Notes under the pieces: generated by a model
The model's input: the letters and a program-made list of their open reading frames with translations, nothing else
Told to the model about the DNA's origin: nothing
The model's database searches: none
In this document: one piece after another, positions 28,311-59,011 of the stretch
Numbering within the stretch: the first letter of the stretch is position 1
How the letters are laid out: each line of letters starts with the position of its first letter
Source of the DNA: a virus
DNA length: 64,000 nucleotides
IMG/VR virus record: IMGVR_UViG_3300034072_001149
Span: 62,001 to 126,000 of that record
Reading direction: 5' to 3' (one strand)
Program-made: the position numbers and the translations under genes

Positions 28311-28565
28311 TTAAGCAGCGGTTGCGACAGATGCCGCTGCCAGCTGATTATTCTTGAACTCCGTTGCTGCGGTGCGTTCCAGCATCAGCTGATTAGCACG
28401 GACACGCAGGCGGTGTAGCTGGCTCTGTAGACCAGAGTTATCGTTGCCCTTGTTTTCCCGCTGTTCTCGCTTGTTGGCGCGAATCTCGAGAGTGAGCTCC
28501 TTGTATTGAGCTCGCCAATCAGCACGATAAGCCAGGTATTCTTCACGAGTAGTAAAAGTAAACAT
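28311..28565 (-). CDS. Small helical phage protein, shared N-terminal module
   Basis: 84 residues. Y-L-A-Y-R-A-D-W-R-A-Q-Y near the N-terminus is shared with the protein at 27727. The rest is a Lys/Glu/Asn-rich coil ending in an Ala-rich tail. GGAGGAG precedes the ATG, which overlaps the preceding stop as TAATG. Confidence 0.6.
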   Translation of the reverse strand: MFTFTTREEYLAYRADWRAQYKELTLEIRANKREQRENKGNDNSGLQSQLHRLRVRANQLMLERTAATEFKNNQLAAASVATAA

Positions 28566-28876
28566 TAGATTTCTCCTCCAAAAGTCAGTTTAAAAAGCAG
28601 TGCGGTGTCACGGTTCTCGAAATACCACTTATCGGCACCACCGTTGTGCCAAAAGCTACCCTGTTGTTCCTTACACCAGGTCATCATTTCCGACAACGGA
28701 CCACCTTTTTGAATATTAACGGTGGTACATTCCGGCCAAGCTTCCCGGAGTCGCTTACTCCAGTGTTTGTCTCGAGTGCTCTGTCCAACTGGTGGACAGA
28801 ACTTGAGGCCACATTCCCTCCAAGCTTTGATATAAGCTTGGGTGGCAATTGACTGGGCTGTGTTGAAGTCCATCAT
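28565..28876 (-). CDS. Small protein of the C-terminal FKL family
   Basis: 103 residues. It ends in R-D-T-A-L-L-F-K-L-T-F, one version of the A-x-x-F-K-L motif that closes many small proteins in this window. Trp-rich, with W-Y-F-E-N before the motif. Two adjacent ATGs are possible starts (28876 or 28873), overlapping the Pth2 stop. Function unknown. Confidence 0.6.
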   Translation of the reverse strand: MMDFNTAQSIATQAYIKAWRECGLKFCPPVGQSTRDKHWSKRLREAWPECTTVNIQKGGPLSEMMTWCKEQQGSFWHNGGADKWYFENRDTALLFKLTFGGEI

Positions 28877-29334
28877 CAGCTGACCGCCGAGAATCGCTTC
28901 GTGATTGCGTGGGCTTGTTCTTTGGTGCAGGGACCAATGCCAAGCGCAGTCACAATGGGCTGACCATCAAATGCCGTTCCCGGCACTACATGGTTCTTGT
29001 CAATGATGAGGGAAGTAATCAGACCAGCTTCCTGAGCCGCCTCATACGCTCGCAGGATCGCTGCTTCGTTCTTGGCTTTGAGGATGATCTGAGTGCCGAT
29101 AAAGTCCGGGCCCTGGTAAACGCGCAGGAGCTCAGGATCTCGACGGCTAGCAAGAAGCACACAATTCTTGGCAGCGTGACAAGCCTGGCTTGCCAACTTG
29201 CCTGGCTTCATATCCAGGTCGCCTCGAATGATGCTGTAGATGCGAAGCTTTTCAGACGCAGCTTCGAAGGCGTCATAGTCGTTGTCGTTGTCGTAACGAG
29301 CAGCGGCTTCCTACAAGAAAGAATTCGTGATCAT
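28876..29334 (-). CDS. pth2: Peptidyl-tRNA hydrolase Pth2, frame interrupted by UAG at codon 8
   Basis: Residues 29-152 form a Pth2 domain: K-L-R-I-Y-S-I-I-R-G-D-L-D-M-K-P-G-K-L-A, then S-Q-A-C-H-A, and T-A-L-G-I-G-P near the end. Pth2 frees tRNA from stalled peptidyl-tRNA. Promoter, AAGGA site and the ATG at 29334 are well formed, but codon 8 (29311-29313) is TAG, in the same frame as the domain. No ATG, GTG or TTG lies between this TAG and the ATG at 29211, and starting at 29211 would remove the first beta strand, which is conserved in the family. Options: readthrough by the CUA tRNA encoded at 31556, a non-standard start, or a sequence error. Conventional annotation would give 28876-29211. 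Confidence 0.75.
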
Positions 29335-29375
29335 TGTCGTTCCTTTTGGTTACTGTCCAACATCGGACAAGCTTC

Positions 29376-29403
29376 AACATAAGAGGGTTTCAGGATATGT
29401 CAA
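29376..29403 (-). promoter_or_regulatory. Sigma-70-type promoter of pth2
   Basis: TTGACA (29398-29403), a 16-base spacer and TATGTT (29376-29381) on the - strand. The leader of about 35 bases has a small GTCC-GATGTT-GGAC hairpin and ends with AAGGAACGACA before the ATG at 29334. This supports translation from the upstream ATG. Confidence 0.7.
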
Positions 29404-29416
29404 CCGTCTTTTTGAA

Positions 29417-29776
29417 TTATTCTCTCCAACGCAATTTGAACATCATTGCGTCTTTGCCATTTTCAAAGATAACTCCCACACTGGACGAGCAACCGCTGGT
29501 CCATCCTGCTTTTTTGAAGTCACCAAACTTTACATTGCTTTCAAGCCATGGTAACATTTCTGAAAAGGTGGAGGCTATGAATCCAGTGATTCTAACCAAA
29601 TACCATCCTGGATATTTGGAATTCACGGTATCAACAAAATCAAGATCGGGGAAATCGTCTTCCTCAAACATACTGTTGAGTTTGGCTTCTCCCAAGACAC
29701 CATCGGTCTCAGGTTCCGCTACATCGTCGAACCATTCTTCGACGTGATCTGTATTTTCATTACGATAGTAGGGCAT
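29417..29776 (-). CDS. Small protein of the C-terminal FKL family
   Basis: 119 residues: an acidic N-terminal half, then W-Y-L-V-R-I-T-G-F and an end of K-D-A-M-M-F-K-L-R-W, the best copy of the family motif. Predicted to be a small alpha/beta domain. Function unknown. The 94 bases upstream (29777-29870) hold nothing clear. Confidence 0.65.
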   Translation of the reverse strand: MPYYRNENTDHVEEWFDDVAEPETDGVLGEAKLNSMFEEDDFPDLDFVDTVNSKYPGWYLVRITGFIASTFSEMLPWLESNVKFGDFKKAGWTSGCSSSVGVIFENGKDAMMFKLRWRE

Positions 29777-29870
29777 TTTCTCAACTCACTCTTTAAATCA
29801 AACCATAGACGGATTGATAGTGAGGAGGAGCCCGAGGAGCCTAGTGTTGGGTAAGAATCTTTTTCATGCC

Positions 29871-30257
29871 TTACTTATACTGATCTAACATATAAGAGTC
29901 AATATTCAAGGACAGTTTGGCAATGAGAGCATCATTGGCTGTTTGGGTTCTGACTACTAGGCGCATCTGATATTCAGAACCACTTGAAAAGTCATCATCA
30001 ATTTCCATAAAACTAAAGAAATGACCTTTTATACAATCCAAGATCTGACGGAAGATTTCGGGATTGGGCCAATAGAAAAATGAAGGATAAACACAAACAA
30101 ATGGCTTACCATAAAATACGAAGTCAAGTGGGGTATCAGACGTCCAGTCTATGGTAGCGACTGGTTCAGTAAATCTCCGATTAAGAGAACCGTAGATACA
30201 GTCTTTACTAGTCCTGTAGACTGTTTTGACTAGCGGTCGACTAGTTGAGGAGATCAC
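29871..30257 (-). CDS. Divergent member of the C-terminal FKL family
   Basis: Up to 128 residues from a GTG at 30257 that overlaps the preceding gene. No internal ATG offers a shorter start. The end reads N-D-A-L-I-A-K-L-S-L followed by a 13-residue extension, a weakened form of the family motif. The middle is aromatic-rich. Start and function are uncertain. Confidence 0.5.
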   Translation of the reverse strand: MISSTSRPLVKTVYRTSKDCIYGSLNRRFTEPVATIDWTSDTPLDFVFYGKPFVCVYPSFFYWPNPEIFRQILDCIKGHFFSFMEIDDDFSSGSEYQMRLVVRTQTANDALIAKLSLNIDSYMLDQYK

Positions 30258-57916: not shown

Positions 57917-57922
57917 ATCTTG

Positions 57923-57951
57923 TTCTAACAGAACTGGTGACCAGAAATCAA
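57923..57951 (-). promoter_or_regulatory. Promoter of the QueD-like gene, predicted leaderless
   Basis: TTGATT (57946-57951), a 17-base spacer and TTAGAA (57923-57928) on the - strand, then CAAGAT and the ATG at 57916. Confidence 0.55.
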
Positions 57952-57952
57952 A

Positions 57953-58207
57953 TTACATCCATGTCAACTTGAACATCATAGCCAGGCGCGGATCATCAAT
58001 AACCAGATCGACTTTCCACTGACTGCGAATCCGCAGGCTGTATTCCATGCCATGTTGTCGCACCCAATCGTCAATATCATCATTCAGGAGAACGGCAATA
58101 TCTCGATGATCTTCGGGGTAAGAACGCCCATAGTGGATACGACAAAGGGGTTTAAGACCCACCTCTCTACCCATCTGAGTACCAATTATAAATCTTACTT
58201 TTTCCAA
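57953..58207 (-). CDS. C-terminal FKL family protein
   Basis: 84 residues ending in P-R-L-A-M-M-F-K-L-T-W-M. W-V-R-Q-H-G-M-E-Y-S in the middle. Overlaps the preceding gene by 13 bases. One of a tandem run 57.9-59.0 kb. Confidence 0.65.
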   Translation of the reverse strand: MEKVRFIIGTQMGREVGLKPLCRIHYGRSYPEDHRDIAVLLNDDIDDWVRQHGMEYSLRIRSQWKVDLVIDDPRLAMMFKLTWM

Positions 58208-58467
58208 ACTGACTTCCTTCTAGTCTTTTGATTTTTCAGCATGAGCTCATCAAACTCATTTCTACTGACTAGATCCAAGTCCCAAGCTAGAATAAAGGTC
58301 CTGGCTGCGACCTTATCCGGGATCACAAAATAGACATCGTTGGTATCTCTAGACCCTTTTGGTGCCTTGTTCAGAAGTATGTACCTTTTATAGGTGATGT
58401 TATTACCAAACAGCCAGGCCAATACCTCGCTATCTATCTCAACCTTCCATTTGTTGATATAATCCAT
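58195..58467 (-). CDS. Divergent FKL family protein
   Basis: 90 residues from the ATG at 58467. W-K-V-E-I-D-S-E-V-L-A-W-L near the start and V-A-A-R-T-F-I-L-A-W-D replace the canonical motif, followed by a 23-residue basic tail. The frame is open to 58812, but that part overlaps two other genes in different frames and is Ser-rich noise. Confidence 0.6.
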   Translation of the reverse strand: MDYINKWKVEIDSEVLAWLFGNNITYKRYILLNKAPKGSRDTNDVYFVIPDKVAARTFILAWDLDLVSRNEFDELMLKNQKTRRKSVWKK

Positions 58468-58514
58468 TCTGTCAATCTGCCATCTCCAGCACCGTCGACG
58501 AGCCAGCTTGACTA

Positions 58515-58745
58515 CTACATCCACCTTAGTTTGAACATCACGGCTTGCTTTCGATCCTTGATCACTAACAGAGCCAGTGAGTCCTTGGGTCTCCATCCCG
58601 GTGGGCAAAAGGTGTAAGCTATCTGATTCTCGGCTAGCCAGTCCATTACTTCTTTTCGAAGCCTGAGCTGCCAACGATCCAGATGTTTCACCATCACTAC
58701 GTGAGTGTGATTGAGCTTGAAGGTTTGATCTGACGTTATGACCAT
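58515..58745 (-). CDS. C-terminal FKL family protein
   Basis: 76 residues; ends in R-K-Q-A-V-M-F-K-L-R-W-M and then two UAG codons in a row. The ATG at 58745 overlaps the preceding gene; an ATG at 58694 is the alternative. W-Q-L-R-L-R-K-E-V-M-D-W-L in the middle matches the helix of the other members. Confidence 0.6.
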   Translation of the reverse strand: MVITSDQTFKLNHTHVVMVKHLDRWQLRLRKEVMDWLAENQIAYTFCPPGWRPKDSLALLVIKDRKQAVMFKLRWM

Positions 58746-59011
58746 GTGAGCTTGAACAACATTGCGTGGTCTTTTCGTTCGAATACAACTCGGCTACGTC
58801 CATTGCCTCCAAGCACCAATCTATGAGGGAAGTTCCGATCTAGTAGCCATTTTTCAATGTAATTCTTGAGTTTTCTGGAGCGTTTTTTACGTCCAGTTTT
58901 TGTTTTATCGTCGCAAAAATCCCAATGAATTTTATGATAGAGTTTGATGGTTCGGGTCTTCTCTTCCTCATAAAATTCCCGAGATTTCCATAAGTCAGGC
59001 TTTTCGAGCAT
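58736..59011 (-). CDS. C-terminal FKL family protein
   Basis: 91 residues, basic (K-T-G-R-K-K-R-S-R-K), ending in K-D-H-A-M-L-F-K-L-T-W-S. Overlaps the DNA glycosylase end by 17 bases. Confidence 0.65.
   Translation of the reverse strand: MLEKPDLWKSREFYEEEKTRTIKLYHKIHWDFCDDKTKTGRKKRSRKLKNYIEKWLLDRNFPHRLVLGGNGRSRVVFERKDHAMLFKLTWS

Follow-up and report, generated by a model that had tools for sequence, protein, structure and literature searches.

The window analysed here is a stretch of 64,000 nucleotides, positions 62001–126000 of the IMG/VR virus record IMGVR_UViG_3300034072_001149 (159,200 bp; hereafter G000), which is probably a fragment. Between 28565 and 59011 its minus strand carries a series of small open reading frames (ORFs) whose products close with an A-x-x-F-K-L-x-W-like motif (Table 1; window coordinates unless a record is named). 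The original prediction had grouped 14 of these ORFs as one expanded family. All 14 are present, and their size range, put at 75–140 residues, proved too narrow, the longest product having 166 aa. A full-domain profile trained on 349 members from five records other than G000, namely those picked up by a first profile of the motif, supports 11 of them (28565, 29417, 34151, 35970, 38349, 54384, 55213, 57291, 57953, 58515 and 58736), leaves 54806 and 58195 borderline, with scores about like that of the best reversed ORF, and gives no match for 29871.

That the motif occurs beyond chance, as had been proposed, was borne out by several searches with reversed controls. Profiles were adopted because simple regular expressions were too loose (15 reversed ORFs matched). 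Above 9 bits, the 22-column motif profile recovered 17 ORFs in G000, 47 in Sinorhizobium phage Phosso, 45 in record G017 and 135 in G007, and no reversed ORF in any of them. With the full-domain profile, G000 yielded 22 ORFs at a cut-off of E 0.002 (21 of them below 0.001), the best reversed ORF standing at E 0.34; at E < 0.01 it counted 22 in G000, 64 in Phosso, 74, 68 and 56 in the related IMG/VR records G006, G011 and G017, respectively, and 242 in G007 (a 561-kb record, of which ~547 kb were read for this count), with zero reversed ORFs in all six. A motif profile built by another route (A2) gave 16, 48, 54, 63, 48 and at least 142, respectively, the last from 150 of 274 candidates scored. 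At the DNA level, the exact motif pattern had 89 hits in IMG/VR, single giant records often contributing several, against 12 for its reversed form, all from separate contigs. Together with the reversed ORFs, this control rules out a chance origin of the motif. The family is thus real and larger than first described, with a median member length of 91–103 aa per record. It extends past the window, with 11 further members at record positions 32157, 51523, 51828, 129094, 129342, 151128, 151750, 154881, 155287, 156379 and 156585 of G000, and into large arrays of related records. ORF 16575–17048, taken in by an early profile, was judged a false member (full-profile E 1.8).

AlphaFold2 models of two members share one order of elements: a strand, a Trp-bearing helix, a strand, a strand with Phe and, at the end, the motif helix (β-α-β-β-α). 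The first, for 58518–58745, used 58 sequences and reached a predicted local distance difference test score (pLDDT) of 84 and a predicted template modeling score (pTM) of 0.69; the second, for 29420–29776, used 49 sequences and reached a pLDDT of 71, with block means of ~68–92 across the C-terminal 75 residues. Each member is predicted to carry a C-terminal domain of ~65 residues, ferredoxin-like without the last strand, in which D-A-x-x-F-K-L-x-W is the last helix. The ferredoxin-like arrangement anticipated in the original prediction is present in both models, and the Trp helix and Phe strand it placed ahead of the motif recur across aligned members (W in 313/342, F in 313/349), beside the other conserved columns (A 325, F 331, K 311 and L 299 of 349). 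The constant "C-terminal hook" it described holds as a constant ending, not as a free tail: in the two models, the motif forms a helix integral to the domain, which also disposes of an initial reading as a β-hairpin. The shared ending has exceptions in 54384, 54806 and 55213, three tandem genes on the minus strand (54384–55713) in which a longer last helix, judged by eye, precedes a strand-like final hydrophobic-K/R-L-S piece; this trio may be a variant form of the family with the fourth strand perhaps retained.

Among solved structures, the nearest folds are generic ferredoxin-like (ACT, RRM) and KH domains, with VIA-align Z scores of at most 6.3, and the best viral match is a protein of Agrobacterium phage Atu_ph07 (BFVD A0A2L0UZT1, E 3e-6). 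This is probably gp258 (YP_009611923.1), an orthologue of the 29417 product that is 36% identical over 67% of the query and differs in its end, FEDSDDALQFVLRY..., which lacks F-K-L. Since fold searches returned only generic matches besides Atu_ph07, the missing clear fold relative tells little.

The last helix is hydrophobic at motif positions 0, 1, 2, 3, 5 and 7. In 365 members picked by a profile cut-off, a table that still leans to the motif, position 4 is K/R in 356, position 5 is hydrophobic in 99%, and positions 1 and 2 are hydrophobic in 88% and 90%, respectively. A narrower column table of 243 sequences is biased, as it holds only A-x-x-F-K-L-x-[WF] sequences. Because positions 1, 2 and 5 should face outward in a lone domain, this pattern suggests a shared contact surface.

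The family grew by tandem duplication, as had been suggested. The closest pairs within a genome (≥50 bits) are mostly adjacent genes, yet these are at most 47.5% identical, pointing to duplication that was tandem and not recent. ATGA overlaps, cited earlier for several tandem genes, are clear for 54806/54384 only; the other overlaps are of 1, 10 or more bases. The notion of variable N-termini on a steadier C-terminus held up well, as the last 22 residues showed greater conservation than the preceding 60 in 18 of 19 orthologue pairs (9/10 and 9/9 in the two comparisons). Members also change faster than other small genes. Between G000 and G006, median identity was 46.7% for members, 61.8% for other small genes (p 3e-4) and 73.7% for larger genes; against G011 the values were 40.6%, 56.6% (p 6e-4) and 67.6%, with seven weaker members hand-added to the family group beforehand. 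BLAST gave no counterpart of 57291 or 57953 in either G006 or G011, and the stretch around 57291 is missing from G006, so gain or loss occurs too. Among G011–G017 orthologues, the proportion of nonsynonymous differences was below that of synonymous ones (pN < pS) in 34 of 34 pairs, and the subset with synonymous divergence (dS) below 2.5 (n = 26) had a median dN/dS of 0.18 and a maximum of 0.46. Purifying selection in every pair indicates that the tested genes encode real, individually maintained proteins; it also weakens the picture of an arms race.

In four records (G006, G011, G017 and G007), members form large arrays of 41–78 genes with two convergent arms. Members are scattered in G000 and Phosso, where clusters hold at most four and eight, respectively. 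The arrays of G006, G011 and G017 occupy one shared locus, with a conserved protein (ORFs of 414–453 aa) on one side and tail-fiber-like genes on the other. The G006 copy of the conserved protein (410 aa; locus L192, 12422–13654) has no Pfam match, and one G006 array-flanking protein matches PF12789, with PF07880 below its cut-off. The neighbors of the G007 array differ and include genes resembling an aminoacyl-tRNA synthetase and a DNA methylase. Gene order is kept between arrays: 34 reciprocal best pairs (25–87% identical) make the G011 and G017 arrays collinear, and 21 pairs for G006–G017 and 23 for G006–G011 are mostly in order, with seven pairs for G006–G007.

Upstream of one arm of the array (locus L193 of G006, ~8.9–9.5 kb, and the matching arm in G011 and G017) lie CTATAG or CACTATAG repeats and a common piece near TGGTGGAGGAATTATTTTC, possibly a promoter or regulatory element. 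In Phosso (L111–L134), an extended −10 promoter pattern occurs at 69 sites in 469 kb, against ~4 expected for random sequence by our own arithmetic, and is densest in the first 20 kb, home of 14 family members. Sigma-70-like sites upstream of members showed slight enrichment in some tests (Phosso, 6 against 1.6 expected, p 0.005, and 1 against 0.8 for another pattern) and did not occur in G000, and nothing was drawn from this enrichment toward an early-promoter idea.

The kinship of G000 with giant phages is seen in 29417, its most conserved member, which has orthologues in Phosso and Atu_ph07. In Phosso the same neighborhood holds genes for CysRS, a tRNA, an aminoacyl-tRNA synthetase, a tyrosine phosphatase, the 29417 orthologue and peptidyl-tRNA hydrolase. 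A further profile (A3) matched nothing in T4, phiKZ, GAP32, CcrColossus, phage G, BcepSauron, phiM9, NCTB, RHph_I1_18 or XaC1, and found six matches in Atu_ph07 (mostly weak, one strong) versus 54 in Phosso. One genome each for 84,980 bacterial and archaeal species yielded 23 DNA-pattern stretches and no convincing member; a bacterial origin was set aside, the stretches containing one ORF above 8 bits, which lacked the rest of the domain. With ten other phages negative, six matches in Atu_ph07 and unconvincing bacterial stretches, the expansion is assigned to a lineage around Phosso, where it amounts to 22–242 paralogues per record of a family absent or rare elsewhere. A protein of 335–561 aa in Phosso and record G039 (locus L199) ends in a similar segment, the Phosso copy in DALMFRLSYSG followed by ~20 residues. 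In Atu_ph07 and XaC1 the C-terminal similarity of this protein is weaker. It may be the family's source or a late recipient.

Searches of sequence libraries brought no convincing known family: at E ≤ 0.1, no Pfam or PHROGs profile hit more than two of the 49 members queried. A Pfam search of eight proteins returned nothing convincing for the six that were members or motif-bearing long proteins, and no description of such a family was found in the open-access library searched. Large eukaryotic DNA viruses carry multigene families, such as ankyrin-repeat proteins and those of African swine fever virus, as paralogue arrays thought to act on host defenses; proteins and hosts are unrelated to those considered here, and in the phage arrays the genes are tiny, code mostly for a single domain and lie in two convergent arms. 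Within phages, Iyer et al. (2021, PMC7824862) offer the closest comparison, describing a zinc ribbon amplified lineage-specifically to ~35 copies in one giant phage, Bacillus phage G. The zinc ribbon differs in fold and has fewer copies; the Phosso-lineage family has two-armed arrays and several times more copies.

The reading that we tentatively favor, at somewhat less than an even chance, is that of a lineage-specific, hugely expanded small-protein family of Phosso-related giant tailed phages serving as a host-interaction repertoire on one scaffold. The genes multiplied in tandem and kept their order in dedicated two-armed arrays, and those tested are under purifying selection and evolve faster than other small genes. 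Their products would be host-interaction proteins, for takeover or counter-defense, each with a target of its own that it reaches through its variable N-terminal part and loops. Closing the fold would fall to the last helix, which has a fixed Lys and is otherwise hydrophobic on nearly every side; this helix may also present a common face through which members pair with each other or with one phage partner. Small, numerous, fast-evolving and individually maintained phage accessory genes most often act on the host, and it is for this general reason that the reading is favored. The structural and evolutionary statement is the best supported part; the step to function is one that we infer. Several points weigh against it. 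Selection is overall purifying, not diversifying; tail-fiber genes adjoin the array in three records, so a structural role is possible; and folding alone might explain why the motif residues are conserved. In NCBIfam and PADLOC, no family was matched by more than one of 58 members (E ≤ 0.01) and no match was relevant, PADLOC covering defense and not counter-defense.

The alternative that survives best, though we consider it unlikely, holds that the F-K-L-x-W helix does no more than pack the core of a tiny domain, with no common partner and unrelated jobs for different members. In the models the motif does form a helix that belongs to the domain, and it also lies inside longer proteins (for example 151750 of G000 and L202). 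Hydrophobic positions 1, 2 and 5 besides 0, 3 and 7, together with the near-invariant K/R, would nonetheless seem to exceed the need of one buried face. Seven multi-domain proteins (ten with at least two domain hits, minus two set aside by eye and one merged duplicate; two of the seven are orthologues) also bear on the matter: six carry an upstream domain copy without FKL, which speaks against scaffolding alone, though these upstream copies score poorly (E 0.007 to 0.97). The seventh has an upstream copy with FKLKF, a further point against the host-interaction reading. A somewhat less likely possibility, built on the shared partner of the original prediction, makes the last helix the center of a plug-in system, in which up to ~240 small proteins per genome, many from two converging operons, would share one docking helix for mutual pairing or for a single phage hub.

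It is improbable that the proteins are degenerate RRM- or KH-like nucleic-acid-binding domains, each binding its own RNA or DNA of host or phage origin. The fold neighbors include RRM, KH and ACT chains, which share the β-α-β-β-α order, with Z up to 6.3 overall, and the strand-turn-helix F-x-D-x-x-D-A resembles its RRM counterpart. Every fold match nevertheless falls in the generic range, including the best ACT match (Z 5.8–5.9, e.g., 2.2 Å over 60 residues), and no sequence similarity to these domains was found. The β-α-β-β-α-β fold of ACT domains, which bind small ligands, has a fourth strand that is absent from the models. RRM membership was rejected: the two models have no strand after the last helix, leaving the fourth strand of the RRM order without a counterpart, and the columns taken as RNP1 aromatics (−11 and −9, in a register assigned by us) are mixed and mostly non-aromatic in the 243 members. 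Slightly more improbable is a virion or tail-associated role, with arrays supplying variable decoration. Although tail-fiber-like genes flank the array in G006, G011 and G017, the largest array, that of G007, lies elsewhere, members are scattered in G000 and Phosso, and a virion would not usually be expected to contain 40–80 distinct proteins this small. Least credible of all is a C-terminal recognition tag, such as a degron for timed removal of early proteins by phage-encoded Clp proteases: a single residue follows the motif in 197 of 373 ORFs (scoring above 11 bits with at most 25 residues past the match; 455 ORFs exceeded the third-best reversed score), upstream copies mostly lack the motif and G000 has ORFs resembling ClpP and ClpA/B by eye, but two or more residues follow it in 175 of the 373 and the models predict it to be a folded part of the domain.

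Some other genes were noted. In the window, a tRNA with anticodon CUA, called as tRNA-Pyl, stands beside a class II aminoacyl-tRNA synthetase core, and TAG is the stop codon of 11 of 118 conserved genes. The CUA tRNA was also called in G006, G011 and Phosso, with an adjoining synthetase gene in Phosso and G006; tRNA and synthetase are possibly a phage-borne amber-suppression pair. A passage of the AP-J-162 paper likewise reports a tRNA-Pyl. Three ORFs resemble two ClpP proteases and one ClpA/B ATPase by eye. The two neighbors 28311–28565 and 27727–28299 share a Y..Y.x.WR..Y...EIR..K-like stretch; a simple pattern for this second family, run over four records, gave one match and was not seen elsewhere.

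Table 1 Family members in the window, arrays in related records and neighboring features. E values of family members are from the full-domain profile
Feature	Record or locus	Coordinates	Strand	Remarks
Family member, 103 aa	window	28565–28876	−	E 8.6e-11; end ...WYFENRDTALLFKLTFGGEI; orthologues in G006 (62%) and G011 (52%)
Family member, 119 aa	window	29417–29776	−	E 4.5e-12; AlphaFold2 model
Family member, 128 aa	window	34151–34537	−	E 4e-7
Family member, 105 aa	window	35970–36287	−	E 2.2e-6; ~20 residues after motif
Family member, 103 aa	window	38349–38660	−	E 4.2e-12; adjoins ORF 37664–38284
Variant-subgroup member	window	54384–54809	−	E 2.9e-4; longer last helix, then AVMFKLSSY; 4-base overlap with 54806–55246
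Probable variant-subgroup member	window	54806–55246	−	E 0.27, alone not significant; end GTMLRLSL; 46% identical to G006 ORF at corresponding place; sits between two members
Variant-subgroup member	window	55213–55713	−	E 8.9e-5; end AVLVKLSVP
Family member, 85 aa	window	57291–57548	−	E 2.0e-5; within ~0.7 kb without G006 counterpart
Family member, 84 aa	window	57953–58207	−	E 5e-9; TTG start
Possible divergent member	window	58195–58812	−	E 0.19, not significant; ORF listed from TTG; A-R-T-F-I-L-A-W (F-I-L replaces F-K-L), then ~30 residues; G006 counterpart 32% identical
Minimal family member, 76 aa	window	58515–58745	−	E 7.7e-9; AlphaFold2 model
Family member, 91 aa	window	58736–59011	−	E 4.5e-9
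Array	G006	132026–147000	25 plus, 21 minus	46 members, 87% of 15 kb
Array	G011	68867–82927	15 plus, 26 minus	
Array	G017	48324–62253	25 plus, 16 minus	
Array	G007	361852–386480	one minus, ~21 plus, then 56 minus	78 members
Neighbor pair	window	27727–28299 and 28311–28565	−	common stretch
Class II aminoacyl-tRNA synthetase core, 262 aa	window	30715–31503	−	PF00587, E 2.6e-11
tRNA, anticodon CUA	window	31556–31632	−	called tRNA-Pyl
Clp-like ORF	window	37664–38284	−	by eye
Clp-like ORFs	L014	12584–13216 and 1418–3781	−	by eye

If the reading of a host-interaction repertoire on one scaffold is right, this would be a very large family for a bacterial virus, with 242 ORFs of a 561-kb record sharing one small domain and, in Phosso, 64 member ORFs set against 735 annotated features. 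It would account for some of the genes in giant phages whose nature is unknown, and it would provide a system for studying how a large accessory-protein repertoire arises in a virus and is retained. Since the cultured phage Phosso, which grows on Sinorhizobium meliloti, carries the family, direct testing is feasible.

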